Below are positions 3,935-55,594 of a DNA stretch of 64,000 bases, piece after piece. The position numbers and the translations under genes were made by a program. Each line of letters begins with the position of its first letter. Within the stretch, counting starts at the first letter, position 1. Under the pieces are notes generated by a model. That model saw only the letters and a list, made by a program, of their open reading frames with translations, did not search any database and was not told the origin of the DNA. The DNA lies in the IMG/VR virus record IMGVR_UViG_3300032180_000385, positions 62,001 through 126,000 of that record; one strand, written 5' to 3'. This DNA comes from a virus.

Positions 3935-6377
3935 CTCCGCTTAGGCTTCGTGCCGGGGAGGTGACAGTACTCGCGCCTGGCGCACCACCCGACACCGCCC
4001 CGTTCCGGCTCGACGCGGACTGGTTAACCGCACTCTGCGCAGGTACCAGAGCCAGTATGCTGTCCTGGCTTACCATCGGCTGTCCGATCGACGTCGCCGT
4101 GCTGTGCCCCTTAATGGTGCTGATCTCTAGGGTTCCCGGACGCAGTACGACAGACAGTGCCTCGGCAGCCTGCGCATGTGCCGCCAGCAGTAGCGAAGCA
4201 GCGGTTATCCCTGTTCCTGTCGCTACGCCGGCAGTTAGGGCAACCTCGGTTGAAGGTGACAGCACCGATCCGGTCCCGCTGGCAAGAGAAGGAGTCACCG
4301 CAGGAGCCGCAGGCAAGACGGTTCCGGTTCCAGTTGCAAGACCAGCAACGGTAACGAAGTCGGCCGAAGCGTCCGGAGCAGTACTCACCCCGTTGGCCAC
4401 TCCGGCAGTGATAGCTGTCGCGATCCCCGCATCCAGAGCGAGTCCAGACCCGAGAGCCCCCGGATCACCGCAGAATCCCGCTTCAGATGCCAATGCAACC
4501 CCGATGCCGACAGCGAGTACGGCGTCAGTAGCGATCGCGGCAGCTACAGGCAATACGGTTCCGGTTCCTACAGCGACCCCGAGCGTGGTCTGACTATCAA
4601 TCGCAGAAGCCGGGGTGGCACCTGTCCCGCTGGCAAGTCCCGCACCCGCCTGATTATCAGCATCCGACGCTAGGCTAGTTCCGCTTCCGGTTGCGGTATC
4701 AGCTACAAGCGCGAAAGAAACAACAGAAGCCTGACCCGTACCGGTAACAAGTCCAGCGGCAGTAAGCGCAGCAGTTACAGACGATACAGTCCCGATTCCG
4801 GTAGCGGTCCCCGCTGTAATCGCAATCACGGCTGGAGTCGTAACAATACTTGTTCCTGGCGCAAAACCAGCATTCCCAACGTTATCGGCATCAGGTGCCT
4901 GGCTCGCACCCGTTCCAGTCGCGAATCCAGGGGCTAGGCCAATTCCGGTAATACCAAGGCCGTAGAAACCTTCGCCGTAAGAACCTCCACCGTAAATGAT
5001 CTCCGTCAGGGCGCTCGCAAGATCGGCAAAACCTTGACTGCCCGCACTAGCTGACGGGACACCCCCGGTTCCGCTGGCAGATCCCGCTGCAAGGCCGATT
5101 CCTGGTGCTTGCACAGTGACGAGGCCGTCAGCAAGCCCCGTGCCTGCAGCTACCGCGGATCCGGATGGCTGCGCAATGGCGAGACCGGTCGCAGATCCTG
5201 CCGCTAGGCTGATTCCCGGTGCTAGTGCTAGGCCCGTGCCCGATGCGAGTCCTACGAAGCCCTGATTATCGGCATCCGGTGCCTGCGCAGCTCCGGTTCC
5301 AATGGCAAGCCCCGCAGCTACGAATACCGGAATCTGAGCTGTTGGTGCCTGTGCCGTACCGGTGGCGGATGCGAAGCCGGGGGTCAGTTCTGCTCCAGGG
5401 GCTCCTGCCGTGCCCGTGCCTGAAACGAGTCCTGCGCCCCCCTGGTTGTCGGCATCAGAGGTCTGCGCTATTCCGGTTCCGGTGGCGAGACCTGGTGTCA
5501 GTCCGACCGCAAGCCCGTCAACAACGGGAGCCCCCGTACCGATCCAGGTTTGATCTGAAGCAGCAAGGTTATCCATCCAAAACGTGTTCGTGCTGTTCGA
5601 TACGCTGGAGCCGATAAGGGCGAAGTTAAGTGCGGAAACGTTGTTGTTAGCTGCGTTGTTGACTGAATCCTGCAGAGTACCAGAAGCGTCGTAAAGTCGA
5701 GCGAAAGTCTGCGCATTTCCTGCCCCGGAAACAAACATGCCTTCAATTCGGTACCAGGTGTTCAGTGACATGGCGGTACCGGTACCGTTAACATTGCCGC
5801 CAGGTCCTATGGCAGAAATATGCCCGGTGCCTGTGATACCCAGCCCTAGTGCACCGGCTCCTGCACGGAATACGTACCCGATTGAATAGTTTGTCAGGTA
5901 GATATAAGCCCGCAGATAGAGGATAGCCGAGTTATACGGAAGCGGGTTCCAGCCGGTATAGCTGAGGCTCGCGGACGTGACAAACTTATAAGCCAGGGAG
6001 CCAGCGAAAACCTGAGAGTTGTCAAAGGTAATTGTTCCCACGCCACCTTGGGTAAGCGCATCACCTGACACTCCGCCGGAGTTCCCCGCTGTTACGGCCG
6101 TAGTGTTCGAGCCGCCTTCAGCTGTGTTTTTCAGCGCTAGAAAGCGAGCGCAGGCTACTCCGGTGCCTGTGGCGAGTCCGGCAGCCAGTCCTATTCCGGA
6201 AGACTGTACAGCACCGGTTCCGTGGGCGAGTCCTGCAGTGACGAATAGAGATGCCTCGCTATACAAAACAGGTGAGGCAACCGTCGTGCAGGCCGGCCAT
6301 GGGAACTGCGGGACGACAATCTTACTAGTGCCGGGAACAAGTGCGACACCGCCGTCGAGCTGGATGACTACTGCCAT
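3927..6377 (-). CDS. repeat-rich tail fibre / appendage protein
   Basis: 816 residues, built almost wholly of a short degenerate repeat of the type A-G-L-A-T-G-T-G-x-A. Interruptions of A-P-D-A-D-N-Q-G recur. Residues about 75-290 form a non-repeat lectin-like (concanavalin/LamG-style) domain nearly identical to one in the 9676-13098 protein. A tyrosine/glycine insert (G-G-G-S-Y-G-E-G-F-Y-G-L-G) is also shared. The protein is probably a host-facing virion fibre or decoration. Repeats and domain copies would favour recombination and length change. Confidence 0.7.
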   Translation of the reverse strand: MAVVIQLDGGVALVPGTSKIVVPQFPWPACTTVASPVLYSEASLFVTAGLAHGTGAVQSSGIGLAAGLATGTGVACARFLALKNTAEGGSNTTAVTAGNSGGVSGDALTQGGVGTITFDNSQVFAGSLAYKFVTSASLSYTGWNPLPYNSAILYLRAYIYLTNYSIGYVFRAGAGALGLGITGTGHISAIGPGGNVNGTGTAMSLNTWYRIEGMFVSGAGNAQTFARLYDASGTLQDSVNNAANNNVSALNFALIGSSVSNSTNTFWMDNLAASDQTWIGTGAPVVDGLAVGLTPGLATGTGIAQTSDADNQGGAGLVSGTGTAGAPGAELTPGFASATGTAQAPTAQIPVFVAAGLAIGTGAAQAPDADNQGFVGLASGTGLALAPGISLAAGSATGLAIAQPSGSAVAAGTGLADGLVTVQAPGIGLAAGSASGTGGVPSASAGSQGFADLASALTEIIYGGGSYGEGFYGLGITGIGLAPGFATGTGASQAPDADNVGNAGFAPGTSIVTTPAVIAITAGTATGIGTVSSVTAALTAAGLVTGTGQASVVSFALVADTATGSGTSLASDADNQAGAGLASGTGATPASAIDSQTTLGVAVGTGTVLPVAAAIATDAVLAVGIGVALASEAGFCGDPGALGSGLALDAGIATAITAGVANGVSTAPDASADFVTVAGLATGTGTVLPAAPAVTPSLASGTGSVLSPSTEVALTAGVATGTGITAASLLLAAHAQAAEALSVVLRPGTLEISTIKGHSTATSIGQPMVSQDSILALVPAQSAVNQSASSRNGAVSGGAPGASTVTSPARSLSGVS

Positions 6378-36781: not shown

Positions 36782-37474
36782 ATGACCAGTGGACGTAACC
36801 CTGACTACATCCCGGGCAAGACCTGCGAGAACTGCGGGAAGCCTATTCCGTGGCGTCCCGGGATAGAGGTGCGAGCGAGAGCCCGCTGGTGCAGCAAAGA
36901 CTGCTTCCAAACCGCTGGACGCGATGCTGCACCTAAGCCGTGTGAAAACTGCGGCAAGCCAATCCCGTGGCGGGAAGGCCGCGCAGCCCGTACTAAGGCT
37001 CGCTTCTGCTGCGACGCCTGTAAATTCGCTTGGCAGAAGCTCCACCCGCCGAATCCACGACAACCTCGGGAAACGAAGCCATGCGACACATGCGGCAAGC
37101 CTGTCGAGTACCTTCCATCCCAGAAGCTGGCAAGTAAGTACCCGAACGGAAACATCTACTGCTCCCGAGAATGCTTCGGTATCGGGCATTCTAAAACCAT
37201 GACGGGACGCCGTCCCAGCGGAGGCATCTATACCTCGCCCAGCACCTTCCGACTGATGATCCGACGCGAATTCTTCGACCGCTGCGCCATCTGCGGCTGG
37301 GACACAACCCCGTGCGACGTCGCGCACATCATCGATCGGAAAGACGGCGGACCCGACTCGCTGGAGAACGTTGTGATGCTGTGCCCGAACCACCACCGGG
37401 CCTTCGACATGAAGTTGATCCCCGTCGAGACAATCCGGCTGGCACGAGAAACGATCCTGCGTAATCATCAGTGA
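36782..37474 (+). CDS. HNH endonuclease with C-x2-C zinc modules
   Basis: 230 residues. Three N-terminal modules of the form C-E-N-C-G-K-P-I-P-W ... C-S-K-D-C (zinc, likely DNA-binding), then a classical HNH core: C-A-I-C-G-W, D-V-A-H-I-I-D-R-K-D-G-G-P-D, N-V-V-M-L-C-P-N-H-H. Inserted between protease and portal genes on the opposite strand; it overlaps the portal stop by seven bases. Homing endonuclease by context. Confidence 0.85.
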   Translation: MTSGRNPDYIPGKTCENCGKPIPWRPGIEVRARARWCSKDCFQTAGRDAAPKPCENCGKPIPWREGRAARTKARFCCDACKFAWQKLHPPNPRQPRETKPCDTCGKPVEYLPSQKLASKYPNGNIYCSRECFGIGHSKTMTGRRPSGGIYTSPSTFRLMIRREFFDRCAICGWDTTPCDVAHIIDRKDGGPDSLENVVMLCPNHHRAFDMKLIPVETIRLARETILRNHQ

Positions 37475-39960
37475 TCACCGTGCCCGTTTCCGTTACCATT
37501 CATTGATCCGGCCAGGACTGACCGCTCCGCATCGGACGGTATCCACGCCCCAACGTATTCAGGCTCGACCTTTTCCGCACGAGCCCGTCCTTCACGCGCC
37601 AGCGCCCGCAGGACAGCTATCAGACCATCCGTGGACAGATCTCCGGCATCTCGCGTCTTCGTCAGAACGGCTGCAAGCAATGATGCGGGAGATTTCGCAG
37701 ACGGCTCAATATTAGGCTGCGCGATACCTTCCTGCTGAAGCTTTTCCAGCCGGTCTGCGGCTAGGTCCATCTCCAGCGTAATCTGGGGAAGCATGGAGTT
37801 CGGAATGCCGCGAATAGAGTGAGCCATCGCGACCATGACATCCGCCGGGATAACCTCATTGCCTGCCCCGCCTGGAAGTGGCCCCATGTCTTCCTTCTCG
37901 CGAATCTCGTCGATGGTCAGGATCCCCGTGTCCCGCTGAGACTCGTAGATCTCCGTCCGGGTCTTCAGATCAGTCTTCAGCAGCGCGTCAGAATTAAAGC
38001 GAACGTACCGGTTAGCGGGAATAATATCGAAGAACGCGGTCTCTAGCCTAACCATCCACGGACGCAAGGATTCAATGACCTGAAGGGTACTCATCTCTAC
38101 CGTGTTGCCAGTAAAATAGCAGGTGCCGTTCCGACGCGCATACCAAGACTTACTTGGCGTACTTACACACCATACAAGATCTGTAACCTCGTCGGTCACG
38201 TACTCCGGATGACCCTTCGGCTTACGCCACGGTGAAATCTGAATCGGCATAACATACATACCATGCTTATTCGGTCCCCGTACCACGCCCGAGCGTCCAG
38301 ACAGTGCGCAGGCAACCTGGAACGCATCAAGCCGCGCTTTATCCTTCTGTGCCATCGTCCAACTTGCGGCATGCCGAGAGCCATCAGCATCGAGGGACGT
38401 TTGAATGAAAAGCTCAAGCTGTGCCCTGGTAAGCTGGCTCAGAAATTCCGTAGAAACTACCTTAGCAGGAGCATGCTTTGTCAGCACCTGCCCAGCTTGC
38501 GCGTTCAACCTGAAATGCACGTGCCCCCGCTCGTCCAGGTCTTCCTGCCATGCCGGACCGCCATCGTGCTGTCCCGTAAGACCATTTCGCAGATTTCGCA
38601 CCACACTCGCGTGTGAACCGCACTTCCGAGCTATTCCCCGATTCGTCCCACTCGGATCACGAAGTAGCTCAACCCGGATAAGATCCCGCTTCTTCCGCCC
38701 ACGCCCGCCTAGCAACGAAACGCCACGCTCTACAGCACTTGGCCCAAACATCTCCGTCAGCGCTGCCCTAATCCGCATTACGTTCAGCGGGTTCACTCGC
38801 TCCGACTGAGCAATTGTCACGGCACCTGATTCCCCGATCCATCCCTCTGTCCAGAACCAAGCCACCAACTCAGCTAGTGCGTCCGACCACTTCGGCTCTA
38901 CCGGAGTCACAACCGGAGCCGCCGCGCAGACCCGCGAATTAATCGGCATAGTTTCTGTAGTTCGCCACTGGTAACCTTCGTTTCTGCGCCTTTCCCCAGA
39001 CAACATCACAGGCCAACGATGATTTGGCGTGGTTACCGACGAATGTGACAGGTTCTCCAGGCGGATAACCGGATAAGACGCGTCATCAAAAACATGTACC
39101 TTTTGAACTGGCTGCCATTCAGCCATACCCGTTTCAGTATTCAGTCCAAGACAAGTGTCCCCGGCAAGCACCTGATCGTGCCTCAGCCAACCGCGCAAGG
39201 TTAGGATTTCCGTCTCAGCATCAGCGCAGTTGTAGGTTAGACTGTCAGCCCTTTTCCCGCCAACGCGATCCGGAGGAAGCCCATAAATGGCAGCAAGCTG
39301 GGTAGCGCTAAACTGCTGACTCTCGATGAATTGAGCTTCAGACGGCGGAACTGTTATCGGCTTGTATTCCCAGTCTCGACCGTAGACGAGTGGCGTATGG
39401 TTCCGGATCGCATCGACTAGCTGCTCCTTGATCTGGTCAGACGCATCCTTATCCACTTCCAGCTGATTATTCTGAAAGGTGCCTGGTGGAAAACCACCGG
39501 AAGCGAACCAGTCGTTGCCAAACCGCTGGGCTTCCGTTCCCGACGAGATCGTCAGCATGAAATGCCGTAGCGGAGAAATACCCTCCGTACGGCCGGGGAG
39601 CGTAAATGCCCGGATATGAAAAAGCTCGTCACGCCAGTTTTCAATCAACCGTCCGTAGACGTACACCCGGGTACGAAGGGGATTCCATGGCTGCTGCGGG
39701 TCATCAATGACGTTAACCATGTCCGGCGGAATCCAATCGATTCCAGTCGGGTAACTAAAGCCATCGCGACCGGTGACGAAACCCCAGGCGTTTCCGTGCA
39801 GGAGCAGTGATGTCATGCACTGGTACACCCAGTCAAAGGTGTTCGCGCTGACTGATGGCCGATCAAAAATAGACGGTCCCCAGTACCTGGCCGCAACGCC
39901 ACCGCCGGGGGCTCGTGTGTAAAGCTTGATTGGCAGGCTGGCGAGAGATTCGGCTAGCAA
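37468..39960 (-). CDS. portal protein with intein
   Basis: Frame of 830 residues; the true N-terminus appears to lie upstream in another frame. Exteins: residues 1-244 and 620-830. They carry portal features: S-L-A-S-L-P-I-K-L-Y, L-L-L-H-G-N-A-W-G-F, H-I-R-A-F-T, and Y-G-L-P-P-D-R-V-G before the intein. After it come T-R-T-E-I-Y-E-S-Q-R and L-T-I-D-E-I-R-E-K-E. The portal is the dodecameric DNA gate at one capsid vertex. Confidence 0.9.
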   Translation of the reverse strand: MLAESLASLPIKLYTRAPGGGVAARYWGPSIFDRPSVSANTFDWVYQCMTSLLLHGNAWGFVTGRDGFSYPTGIDWIPPDMVNVIDDPQQPWNPLRTRVYVYGRLIENWRDELFHIRAFTLPGRTEGISPLRHFMLTISSGTEAQRFGNDWFASGGFPPGTFQNNQLEVDKDASDQIKEQLVDAIRNHTPLVYGRDWEYKPITVPPSEAQFIESQQFSATQLAAIYGLPPDRVGGKRADSLTYNCADAETEILTLRGWLRHDQVLAGDTCLGLNTETGMAEWQPVQKVHVFDDASYPVIRLENLSHSSVTTPNHRWPVMLSGERRRNEGYQWRTTETMPINSRVCAAAPVVTPVEPKWSDALAELVAWFWTEGWIGESGAVTIAQSERVNPLNVMRIRAALTEMFGPSAVERGVSLLGGRGRKKRDLIRVELLRDPSGTNRGIARKCGSHASVVRNLRNGLTGQHDGGPAWQEDLDERGHVHFRLNAQAGQVLTKHAPAKVVSTEFLSQLTRAQLELFIQTSLDADGSRHAASWTMAQKDKARLDAFQVACALSGRSGVVRGPNKHGMYVMPIQISPWRKPKGHPEYVTDEVTDLVWCVSTPSKSWYARRNGTCYFTGNTVEMSTLQVIESLRPWMVRLETAFFDIIPANRYVRFNSDALLKTDLKTRTEIYESQRDTGILTIDEIREKEDMGPLPGGAGNEVIPADVMVAMAHSIRGIPNSMLPQITLEMDLAADRLEKLQQEGIAQPNIEPSAKSPASLLAAVLTKTRDAGDLSTDGLIAVLRALAREGRARAEKVEPEYVGAWIPSDAERSVLAGSMNGNGNGHGDH
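38104..39228 (-). mobile_element. portal intein, 375 aa, with LAGLIDADG-type endonuclease
   Basis: Begins C-A-D-A-E-T-E-I-L-T (Cys1), block B S-S-V-T-T-P-N-H, ends W-Y-A-R-R-N-G-T-C-Y-F-T-G-N before Thr+1. Two LAGLIDADG-like helices: L-V-A-W-F-W-T-E-G-W-I-G and L-F-I-Q-T-S-L-D-A-D-G-S. A segment between them (N-R-G-I-A-R-K-C-G-S-H-A) looks like a helix-turn-helix insert. Splicing domain is closely similar to the mini-intein at 15 kb. Confidence 0.9.
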
Positions 39961-52415: not shown

Positions 52416-54017
52416 TCAGATATCTCCTCGCGCGTGATCTGCAAGCAGGGTCGGAATAGCTGAGTCAAAACCCGAGACATCGAGTTCTCGTCCATCCTCG
52501 GGACGAGCGATGCTGAACTCAGTCGGCGAGATCGCGATGACCTGAAGCCGGGCGTCGATGCCCATCTTCTGCCGGTACTCTTCCAGAGCCTGATGCGGGT
52601 GAATCGGACCGTACCAGGTCTCCCCATCCGTCCACACTCTGAAAACATCCGCTTGCACTCGGTGACGAGTCGCCCAGGTCATCGGCGCCGCGCAGTCAGT
52701 GGATCCGCCCCAGACGCTCATGATCTTGGCGATAACGGCGTCAAGGCGCATCCGCGGCGACAGGTCGATCGGAAGCAGTTCGGTGCTGAAGGTGAACATG
52801 CCGGAATACGGCTCGGTCTTCTGGGTGACCATGGCCATGGCAGCGACCGCCTCGACGGCGGTGAACGGGTACCCGGCAATCGCCCAGCCCATCGAGCCAG
52901 ACGTGTCGGTGGCGTTGACGATCCGCTTTCCGGACGGCTCAACCGAACCGTAGGCCGCGTAGAATCCCGCATCGCAGGCGTCGGTGATGACCGGAACCGG
53001 GGTCCAGGTGCCGCCCCTGCCGCGCATCGGACGGCCGGCCGCGTATGCCTTCAAGGTGAGCAGCATCTCAACAGGATGGATGCGAGCCTTCGCCAGTCCG
53101 GCCGAGTCGGCGATCCTGGTGGCGACGTCGCTGGTCAGGCTGTCCATCGGGGCGAGCACGCCGAGCCGGGTCAGCTTGGCCAGGTTGCGAGTCAGCGCGC
53201 CCAGCGGAACGTTGCCGTTCGCGATCAGCGCCCGCCATACGTCAGCGTTCCCCGTTGCCTCGGACGGCAGCATCTCGTGCGACAGGGAGCGACAGCCCTC
53301 GATGATCGAAACCCACTCGCTGACGTCCTGGGTGGCGTGCGCAGCTGCAGCAGCCTGGACAACCGGAATCCCGGCCAGCTCATCGCCGAGAACGCCCTTA
53401 GCGATGTAATTCCACAGAGCCTGCTGCCGCGTGTTGCCGTGGTGCTGGACGTGCGCGAGCCGGATCAGGTCACGCTGCGCCCACTTATCCCGCTGCTTGT
53501 ACTTGAGCACCTGGTAGGCGGCACCCTCAGTGCTCTGGCCGGTGTACCAGTTACGGACGCCCTTGATAAGCTGCGGACCCCAGCCGCGGAACATCTCCGC
53601 GTACAGCGCGTACTTCAGGATGTGACCGCCGGTGCGCGCGACCTGCGGCAGTGCCCACAGGGCATGAGCGCGAGCCTCAGTGCTGCCCAGGCCGGATGCC
53701 GCCGCGAGAGCGAAGAGCGCTGGGTCGTTGCACGGTGCCCGGCCCGCCTGGCTGATCGCTACCGCATCGTTGACGAGTCGCGGATCGGATGCCTTTGCGA
53801 GCTTGGTGACTACCCCGGCATTATCACGGGTGAGATCACGCTCGGTAACGTAGTACGTTCCGCCTTCGACCCCCAATGTCAAAAACCTGTTGAGCCGCGC
53901 GTAATCGTCGATGACGAAGACAAACCCGCCCGCGTTGTTCTTGACCTGGTCCTCACGGGCCGGCTCGGACTGCGGAGTGCGCCTCGGGGTGACATGACGC
54001 TCCAGCGCGCTGCTCAT
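52416..54017 (-). CDS. TROVE/vWA protein (Ro60 / Rsr homologue)
   Basis: 533 residues from ATG 54017 (AAAGGA upstream). TROVE domain residues ~30-330 with N-W-Y-T, Q-V-L-K-Y-K-Q-R-D-K-W-A and R-D-L-I-R-L-A-H-V. The vWA domain has the metal site D-T-S-G-S-M-G at about residue 371 and W-T-D-G-E-T. Ro60 proteins form a ring that binds misfolded RNA and Y RNAs; bacterial forms work with Y RNAs that mimic tRNA, and phage copies are known. Here the gene's own leader and the ~1 kb upstream hold related structured RNAs. Confidence 0.9.
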   Translation of the reverse strand: MSSALERHVTPRRTPQSEPAREDQVKNNAGGFVFVIDDYARLNRFLTLGVEGGTYYVTERDLTRDNAGVVTKLAKASDPRLVNDAVAISQAGRAPCNDPALFALAAASGLGSTEARAHALWALPQVARTGGHILKYALYAEMFRGWGPQLIKGVRNWYTGQSTEGAAYQVLKYKQRDKWAQRDLIRLAHVQHHGNTRQQALWNYIAKGVLGDELAGIPVVQAAAAAHATQDVSEWVSIIEGCRSLSHEMLPSEATGNADVWRALIANGNVPLGALTRNLAKLTRLGVLAPMDSLTSDVATRIADSAGLAKARIHPVEMLLTLKAYAAGRPMRGRGGTWTPVPVITDACDAGFYAAYGSVEPSGKRIVNATDTSGSMGWAIAGYPFTAVEAVAAMAMVTQKTEPYSGMFTFSTELLPIDLSPRMRLDAVIAKIMSVWGGSTDCAAPMTWATRHRVQADVFRVWTDGETWYGPIHPHQALEEYRQKMGIDARLQVIAISPTEFSIARPEDGRELDVSGFDSAIPTLLADHARGDI

Positions 54018-54056
54018 CAGAAAAATCCTTTCTCGTACTGCGATATAAAAGCAGAA

Positions 54057-54129
54057 GCCCTGCGGGCATAAGAACGGCTGACGGATTGCCATGGTTTGAG
54101 TGATAACCGTCTGCCTCCGGCTCGCAGGG
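54057..54129 (-). ncRNA. structured RNA element R6 (Ro60 leader)
   Basis: Closed by CCCTGCGaGC / GCcCGCAGGG (A-C mismatch). Inside is a hairpin GACGG / CCGTC, with the family motifs CGAGCCGGA, GGTTATC and TTATGCCCGC. Nearly the same as R5 except for the hairpin loop. Lies 40 bases before the Ro60 start. Confidence 0.65.
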
Positions 54130-54135
54130 TGCTGC

Positions 54136-54432
54136 TCAGAACTGCGTCTCGGTAAGAGCCTCAACGATGGTGATCTCCGGCGGGCCTTGCGCACCGACTT
54201 CCGCGATGAATGACTGCAGAGCAGGGTTGGCGAAGAACTGCTGGAACTGCTCCGCGGTCTCCCACTCGTCGACGACCACGACGATGCCGTCGCCGATGCC
54301 GAACTGGTGATGGAGCGCGCCCTGTGACTGGCTTGAATCGGTGATTTCCGTGAACACAGCGGCCCGATCGGTCAGGGCCTGACGGAACACTGCGGTATCA
54401 CCGGGGAACTTCATGATGACGAGTACGCTCAT
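54136..54432 (-). CDS. ABM-like (dimeric ferredoxin-like fold) protein, 98 aa
   Basis: V-L-V-I-M-K-F-P-G-D at the start, H-H-Q-F-G-I-G-D-G-I-V-V-V-V-D-E-W in the centre, then A-E-Q-F-Q-Q-F-F-A-N-P-A-L. Pattern of antibiotic-biosynthesis-monooxygenase-like small proteins. Located between two structured leaders (R5 upstream, R6 downstream). A second ABM-like protein is at 62062. Function unknown. Confidence 0.6.
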   Translation of the reverse strand: MSVLVIMKFPGDTAVFRQALTDRAAVFTEITDSSQSQGALHHQFGIGDGIVVVVDEWETAEQFQQFFANPALQSFIAEVGAQGPPEITIVEALTETQF

Positions 54433-54460
54433 CGGATAAATCCTTTCGTGGCTGACTAAA

Positions 54461-54528
54461 GCCCTGCGGGCGTAAGAACGACTGACGGGTTTCGTCCAAG
54501 ATAACCGTCTGCCTCCGGCTCGCAGGGC
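54461..54528 (-). ncRNA. structured RNA element R5 (leader of the ABM-like gene)
   Basis: Outer stem GCCCTGCGaGC / GCcCGCAGGGC, inner hairpin GACGG / CCGTC, motifs CGAGCCGGA, GGTTATC, TTACGCCCGC. Same form as R6 and 28 bases before the ATG at 54432. The order of the two halves is permuted relative to R1-R4. Confidence 0.65.
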
Positions 54529-54635
54529 CTCGGCATGCGTGCGGGTACGGCGGGCGTAAAGCTTCTTCCGGGTGCTCGGCCAATTGAGCATGCAGACCAA
54601 ACCTTTCGGATGGACTGCGGAGGAATCGAACCTTC

Positions 54636-54705
54636 GATAACCGGAGGATTCCGGCTCGCCGCGATGTAGTTGTGTGTAAGTGCGGCGGGCATATGTCGTA
54701 TCCGG
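54636..54705 (-). ncRNA. structured RNA element R4
   Basis: Stem a CCGGA / TCCGG, stem b GCcCGCCGC / GCGGCGaGC, ATATGCCCGC and CGAGCCGGA motifs, ends GGTTATC. A T-arm-like hairpin (54619-54635) follows at once. Shares an identical run of more than 25 bases with R3. Confidence 0.65.
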
Positions 54706-54768
54706 AAGTGGAGAAGCCGCACTCCCTAACCCTTGCAGGCCGGGGGATTCGAACCCCATATCCCATCA

Positions 54769-54843
54769 GATAACCGGACGCGTCCGGCTCGCCGCGATGT
54801 AGTTGTGTGTTAATCAGCATAGCGGGCATAAAATCCGTCCCGG
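54769..54843 (-). ncRNA. structured RNA element R3
   Basis: Stem a CCGGG / TCCGG, stem b GCcCGC / GCGaGC, TTATGCCCGC motif, ends GGTTATC. Preceded by a tRNA-like D-arm (54860-54884) and followed by a T-arm-like hairpin (54743-54757). Confidence 0.65.
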
Positions 54844-54889
54844 CATATATCATGCTGGTGCTCTATCCATTGAGCTACCCGATCTTACA

Positions 54890-55048
54890 ACCGGAGCGAG
54901 GATTCGAACCTCGCTACCCCCAGCTCCCGCGATAACCAGGTCGATCCGGCTCGCCATGCTAAGTCCGTGAACACTATGCGGTTGTCAGTGACAGCAGGCA
55001 TAAGTTCAGTCCCGGCATTTTCGGTGCTCCATCCTGAGCTACCCCGGT
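54890..55048 (-). tRNA. candidate interrupted tRNA-like unit (contains R2)
   Basis: ACCGGGG (55048-55042), TA and a D-arm GCTC-6-GAGC. About 110 bases later come a T-arm CGAGG-TTCGAAT-CCTCG and CTCCGGT, which pairs with the first seven bases (one G-U). No CCA is encoded and a normal anticodon arm cannot be formed. Element R2 occupies the anticodon region. Could be a tRNA mimic or a tRNA with an insert; the type call is provisional. Confidence 0.4.
54931..55015 (-). ncRNA. structured RNA element R2
   Basis: Stem a CCGGG / CCTGG, stem b GCcTGC / GGCGaGC region, TTATGCCTGC and CGAGCCGGA motifs, ends GGTTATC. Lies between a D-arm (55026-55039) and a T-arm (54897-54913). Confidence 0.6.
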
Positions 55049-55095
55049 CTCCCGGGAGCAGGGACTCCCACCCCGCGTCCACCGGCTTAGAAGGC

Positions 55096-55148
55096 GATAA
55101 CCAGGTCGATCCGGCTTGCTGTCGTACAGCAGCTTACACGGTTCCTGA
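55096..55148 (-). ncRNA. structured RNA element R1 (diverged, short loop)
   Basis: Stem a TCAGG / CCTGG, stem b GCTGCTGT / ACAGC(A)AGC closed by a three-base loop, then AGCCGGA and GGTTATC. First element of the array, about 90 bases from the divergent cupin gene. Confidence 0.5.
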
Positions 55149-55237: not shown

Positions 55238-55594
55238 ATGCTGGAAGTGAAGAACCTCGGCACACCCGACGACCACCGCGTGTTCCCGAACGGGCAGCTG
55301 GATGTCGTAACCGTGGGCGCGATGACCTTCGGGTTCGCTACCTTCGAGCCCGGTTGGCGCTGGACGCAGTCGCTGCGGTCGATCGTCGGCACGGACACTT
55401 GCCAGGCGGCGCACAACGGATACTGCGCGAGCGGAAGCATGCACATCCTCATGGATGATGGAACAGAATCCGACATCGGGCCAGGCGACGCGTTCGTCAT
55501 CTCGCCGGGACATGACGCCTGGGTGACCGGGAACGAGCCATGCATCGCCTACGACTTCTCTGGCTACGCGAACTACGCCAAGCCTCAGGAGTAG
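55238..55594 (+). CDS. small cupin protein, 118 aa
   Basis: F-E-P-G-W-R-W-T-Q-S near residue 35, G-S-M-H-I-L-M-D-D-G and G-P-G-D-A-F-V-I-S-P-G-H-D: a single-domain cupin. GGAGAAGGG upstream. Divergent from the RNA array. Looks like a host metabolic protein; a strong hairpin terminator follows. Confidence 0.75.
   Translation: MLEVKNLGTPDDHRVFPNGQLDVVTVGAMTFGFATFEPGWRWTQSLRSIVGTDTCQAAHNGYCASGSMHILMDDGTESDIGPGDAFVISPGHDAWVTGNEPCIAYDFSGYANYAKPQE

Follow-up and report, generated by a model that had tools for sequence, protein, structure and literature searches.

Most of what is known about Ro60 and its Y RNAs comes from human autoimmunity and a few bacteria. The human Y1 RNA reads GGUCCGAAGG..GUUAUC, which resembles the GGGCCGAAGG..GGTTATC of the phage array described here. 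Chen et al. (2014) are said to have found a tRNA-like domain in at least one Y RNA of each species, though not in all. In the Ro60-binding site, an unpaired, conserved C comes after a helix of about seven base pairs (PMC4726728, PMC4030889); this bulged C is the primary Ro60 contact, and H187 of human and mouse Ro60 contacts the Y RNA (PMC4030889). In bacteria, the tRNA-like part of YrlA links the Ro60 orthologue Rsr to PNPase (PMC8394870, PMC7790460). Y RNAs in mycobacteriophages were identified by Chen et al. 2014, as cited in PMC12282133, and have been proposed for a Listeria phage (PMC12282133).

The window analysed here, a stretch of 64,000 nucleotides, covers positions 62001-126000 of an IMG/VR virus record of 128,987 bases, and terminase, portal and major head genes are all present in it. 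No near-identical DNA was found among GenBank phages for the 25 kb tested. An IMG/VR contig of 184,980 bases encodes a Ro protein of 100% identity and carries the array as in the window. The relatives of the phage point to actinobacteria as the host group. Separately, the portal gene (37468-39960) gives portal-family matches in two parts, about 1-236 and 619-700, divided by an apparent intein. Directly upstream of a Ro60/Rsr gene lies an array of six minus-strand units, 54057-55123 (Table 1). These elements are structured RNAs, namely phage Y RNAs that are predicted partners of Ro60/Rsr, and we hold it to be very probable that the array encodes six such RNAs binding the Ro60 protein encoded immediately downstream.

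Table 1. Features of the Y RNA array and its neighbourhood, in window coordinates. R1 and R2 are the covariance models described in the text, with E-values from a shortened calibration; T and D arms belong to the tRNA-like module.
Feature	Position	Strand	Length	R2 E	R1 E	Rfam YrlA	Fold z	Outer helix	Stem a	T arm	D arm	Remarks
Y RNA unit 1	54990..55123	-	134 nt	8.6e-10		22.4 bits, sub-threshold		GACAGCA/UGCUGUC	CCUGG/CCGGG	55061-55074	55026-55041	
Y RNA unit 2	54816..54959	-	144 nt	2.8e-12		29.8 bits, E=4.7e-4		GCAUGGCG/CGCUAUGC	CCUGG/CCGGG	54900-54910 (core), intact	54860-54877	
Y RNA unit 3	54681..54796	-	116 nt	1.4e-9				GCGGCG/CGCCGC	UCCGG/CCGGA	54744-54756	54710-54725, divergent	
Y RNA unit 4	54546..54663	-	118 nt	2.3e-9		20.1 bits		GCGGCG/CGCCGU	UCCGG/CCGGA	54622-54632 (core)	54574-54589	
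Y RNA unit 5	54460..54528	-	69 nt	1.7e-5	4e-6		-3.0	GCCCUGCG/CGCAGGGC	GACGG/CCGUC			minimal, without tRNA-like module
98-aa ORF	54136..54432	-	98 aa									between units 5 and 6
Y RNA unit 6	54057..54130	-		6.5e-6	2.1e-7		-3.4	CCCUGCG/CGCAGGG	GACGG/CCGUC			minimal, without tRNA-like module
Ro60/Rsr orthologue	52416..54017	-	533 aa									full length; TROVE + vWA_Ro60

Six minus-strand copies of the shared motifs had already been reported at this place in the original prediction, and a motif search recovers them. AGCCGGA...GGTTATC and TTAYGCC each occur six times in the array, on the minus strand only, and the 5′ motif has exactly six copies in the whole 129-kb record, against none for a reversed control. 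Every unit is a hairpin closing on itself, and one covarying plan is common to all six. On the 5′ side, an outer helix of about seven pairs leads to an A-C mismatch and two further pairs. An unpaired C separates these from stem b, and a bulge separates stem b from stem a, whose GGTTATC end opens into a variable insert. On the 3′ side, the second strands of stems a and b come first; an internal loop with TTAYGCC at its end then joins them to the second strand of the outer helix. The insert of units 1-4 passes from a T arm through an acceptor-like hairpin to a D arm; that of units 5 and 6 is a short loop and nothing more. The register of the original prediction was half a unit off, so that the 3′ arm of one unit was joined to the 5′ arm of the next. 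It therefore named the wrong partners for stem a: the pairs do vary in sequence, as had been claimed, but within a unit they are CCUGG/CCGGG, UCCGG/CCGGA and GACGG/CCGUC. Its interval reached to 55148 because its TCAGG (55144-55148) is an unrelated stretch outside unit 1. The outer helix had gone unnoticed, as had the tRNA-like modules of units 1-4 and their lack in units 5 and 6, whilst the A-C mismatch, claimed for most copies, is found in all six.

The outer helix forms 36 of the 36 possible pairs across the six units. When the 3′ arms were re-dealt among the units, 4 of 720 permutations equalled this number, all of them swaps of interchangeable arms. The invariant unpaired C is present in all six window units, and none of the 25 training units departs from the C and G that follow the outer helix. 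These training alignments held 12 minimal and 13 tRNA-bearing units, taken from other phages only and containing no window sequence. The covariation that the prediction required of homologues is present: consensus folding of homologues outside the window gave two-sided compensatory changes at 12 of 16 pairs in the minimal class and at 21 of 32 in the tRNA-bearing class. Applied to the window, covariance model R2 found all six units at E=2.8e-12 to 1.7e-5 (next match E=3.9) and model R1 found the two short units (next match E=1), the E-values of both models coming from a shortened calibration. A covariance search of the whole record returned the six units and nothing else of note. In thermodynamic folding the two short units score better than the other four, whose z values are modest (-0.4 to -2.7), and the case for structured RNAs is carried by the comparative evidence, not by thermodynamic folding. 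The array is overlapped by ORFs, as it would be if the repeats were conserved coding sequence. However, the motifs are spread over all three reading frames, protein conservation does not explain them, and the changes among homologues are compensatory at the RNA level; we regard a coding origin as next to impossible.

As predicted, the array sits just before a TROVE/vWA gene. The Ro start codon follows the helix end of unit 6 by 40 nt, and the protein matches Pfam TROVE and vWA_Ro60 (PF05731, E=1.3e-29; PF25045, E=1.5e-51). Its best solved relatives are Deinococcus Rsr (2nvo, E=6.7e-103) and animal Ro60, and it carries the DTSGS motif. Moreover, its H189 is the equivalent of the Y-RNA-contacting H187 and is invariant in 13 phage Ro proteins. 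The 98-aa ORF, which begins 28 nt after the helix end of unit 5, has no match in Pfam or PHROG; its leader, comprising unit 5, the ribosome-binding site and the start codon, is nearly a copy of the Ro leader. The duplicated stretches are located at 54055-54129 and 54459-54527, each together with the next 30 nt. Divergent from the array is a small cupin-like ORF at 55238-55594 (+), whose Cupin_2 score is under the curated cut-off.

The units are similar to bacterial YrlA (RF02553; Salmonella, Deinococcus, Mycobacterium smegmatis) in that the gene adjoins Ro60/Rsr, in that the paired ends form a Ro-binding basal stem (predicted in the phage units) and in the permuted module with T arm, acceptor-like hairpin and D arm. 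The insert of units 1-4 is the circularly permuted tRNA mimic of YrlA, although in unit 1 the T arm has kept its stem and UUCGA has gone from the loop. In contrast to bacterial YrlA, the basal-stem motifs are different (AGCCGGA..GGTTATC / TTAYGCC), and the window array is phage-borne, has six copies and includes two without the tRNA module. A comparison with the Rfam YrlA model had been suggested beforehand. The model recognises the module, with a full-length alignment to unit 2 and weaker ones to units 1 and 4, but all of these lie far below the RF02553 gathering score of 69 bits, which no unit reached. In 17 related phage and bacterial loci, Rfam at gathering level reported tRNAs and tmRNAs and not a single Y unit. 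As the RF02553 threshold is missed by the array and by its relatives, the array is not filed under that family.

T-arm and D-arm motifs, together with the two 'tRNAs' that ARAGORN reports when introns are allowed, could also indicate a phage tRNA cluster whose genes are decayed or contain introns. We find this highly unlikely, since homologues show covariation in the outer hairpin, no tRNA part is present in units 5 and 6, ARAGORN at its default setting reports no tRNA genes, and the Rfam tRNA model scores only 16.6 bits in matches that span unit boundaries. Intron-containing tRNA genes were rejected because the T arm comes before the D arm within each unit, and nowhere in the array do D, anticodon and T arms stand in order in one gene.

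The basal stem of the units likewise corresponds to the vertebrate Ro60-binding site, in which a seven-pair helix and a second helix flank a single conserved C and an internal loop (PMC4726728, PMC4030889). The invariant C of the units falls at the position of the bulged C with which Ro60 makes its primary contact. Vertebrate Y RNAs differ in having no tRNA-like module, in being transcribed by RNA polymerase III and in their loops. Units 1-4 provide the tRNA-like module in at least one RNA of the genome, and the reported rule of at least one such domain per species fits the two unit classes of the array. Taken together, position, partner, Ro60-site anatomy and tRNA module all agree on the identity of the units as Y RNAs. 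The earlier proposal of Y RNA-like partners of Ro60, still a predicted pairing, is thus strongly supported by position, anatomy, the YrlA module and the contact histidine. That these would be of a new type is not supported, as units 1-4 are built like YrlA, arrays of this kind elsewhere often include minimal units, and Y RNAs of mycobacteriophages are already reported (PMC12282133, citing Chen et al. 2014). With bacterial and mycobacteriophage Y RNAs already published, the array falls within a recognised kind of RNA.

Ro genes are present in 341 GenBank phage records, mostly those of Mycobacterium and Streptomyces phages. From a sample of 80 bacterial and 80 viral Ro loci, R2 returned 174 and 253 matches, respectively, at E<=0.01, overwhelmingly on the Ro strand and upstream of Ro. 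A motif-and-helix scan identified units upstream of the Ro gene in 62/80 of the bacterial and 67/80 of the viral loci, bearing out the clustering beside Ro genes for which a covariance search had been proposed. Unit density upstream of Ro was 1.25 per kb in bacterial and 1.95 per kb in viral loci; because the scan requires helices, unit counts are selected for pairing and the background rates (0.02-0.04 per kb elsewhere in Ro loci, 0.032 in control loci) serve as the control, giving an enrichment of about 40-fold. Actinobacteriophages (Farewell, Colt, FuzzBuster, Cashline, BearBQ and Streptomyces phages) have the window-type unit in both classes, likewise upstream of a gene for a 'Ro-like RNA binding protein', and no Y RNAs are annotated in the records examined. 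Their arrays usually have one to five units, compared to six in the window; in Bixzunavirus phages such as Colt and LinStu, two minimal units and one tRNA-bearing unit make up the set at the Ro locus. Across relatives, array sizes range from one to about eight units, with both insert classes recurring, and at one viral locus (L357) eight or more model matches lie upstream of Ro. A count of six is therefore high, not extreme. In the Gordonia phages Forza, Sixama and GMA2, unannotated units are found inside a tRNA/tmRNA array downstream of Ro. Two further Rfam matches lie in phage tRNA regions: a Pistol ribozyme (RF02679, 56.8 bits) at 4991-5047 of the GMA2 locus, within the tRNA array, and an Rfam tRNA-Sec match (51 bits against a threshold of 47) at 850-935 of the Streptomyces phage TunaTartare locus, at an unannotated place in the tRNA region.

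Near-copy leaders in front of Ro and of the 98-aa ORF, ribosome-binding site included, suggested Ro60 autoregulation. Units 5 and 6 would then be cis leader elements, with free Ro60 controlling translation or termination by binding both its own mRNA and the mRNA of the 98-aa ORF, which we judge improbable. Equally doubtful is the regulon that would follow, in which Ro60 bound to a Y-RNA mimic on its own mRNA ties Ro synthesis to the pool of free Y RNA and the 98-aa ORF is co-controlled. Both units end shortly ahead of start codons, a weak terminator-like hairpin overlaps the 3′ arm of unit 6, and a minimal unit is nearest Ro in 38/67 viral loci and in 21/31 mixed viral loci (13.8 expected, p=0.006). 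However, median gaps from Y unit to ORF and from tRNA to ORF in the phages of the set, hand-read from annotation and match tables, are 29.5 and 30 nt (p=0.85). Moreover, the order effect is gone after related loci are merged (at 60% identity, 11/20 vs 9.4 expected, p=0.30), and the raw signal is therefore due to relatedness among loci. The terminator-like hairpin is not conserved, being found at 2/387 units and at 2/387 random positions. A different ORF follows the unit in Streptomyces phages, and the strongest units of Forza and Sixama are those downstream, in the tRNA array. The spacing, order and terminator tests thus gave no positive support for Ro autoregulation, revealing neither a Ro-specific placement nor a conserved terminator.

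For six Y RNAs that bind Ro60, we propose that the outer part of each hairpin would dock on the exterior of the Ro60 ring, where the conserved histidine surface lies. Since the tRNA-like part of YrlA connects Rsr with PNPase, units 1-4 probably serve as tethers: by analogy with Deinococcus and Salmonella, their module would attach the host exoribonuclease PNPase to Ro60, which could then feed structured RNAs to it during infection. With the UUCGA loop lacking in unit 1 and the D arm divergent in unit 3, tethering of PNPase may fail for some of the four. Units 5 and 6, in which the module is absent, likely bind or gate Ro60 with no recruitment of the nuclease. The Y RNAs would probably be transcribed together with the Ro operon, at its head, and then cut out. 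A sigma-70 promoter scan across the array found none; before unit 1 there is a poor TTGCGC-16-TAAGCT match that is only suggestive. A linker motif, ACAACTACAT, stands ahead of units, and the matches listed for it in a collection scan are dominated by chance.

In summary, phage Y RNAs as such are not new, and the array is of a known kind that Rfam misses in these phages and bacteria and that is present here in high copy number. With the covariance models of this analysis, a large branch in actinobacteria and actinophages can be detected that Rfam YrlA misses. Direct tests could start from many existing cassette-bearing phage strains, such as mycobacteriophages on M. smegmatis. Phages carry whole cassettes of Ro60 plus Y RNAs, with two classes of RNA, implying that control over the decay of structured RNA pays during infection.
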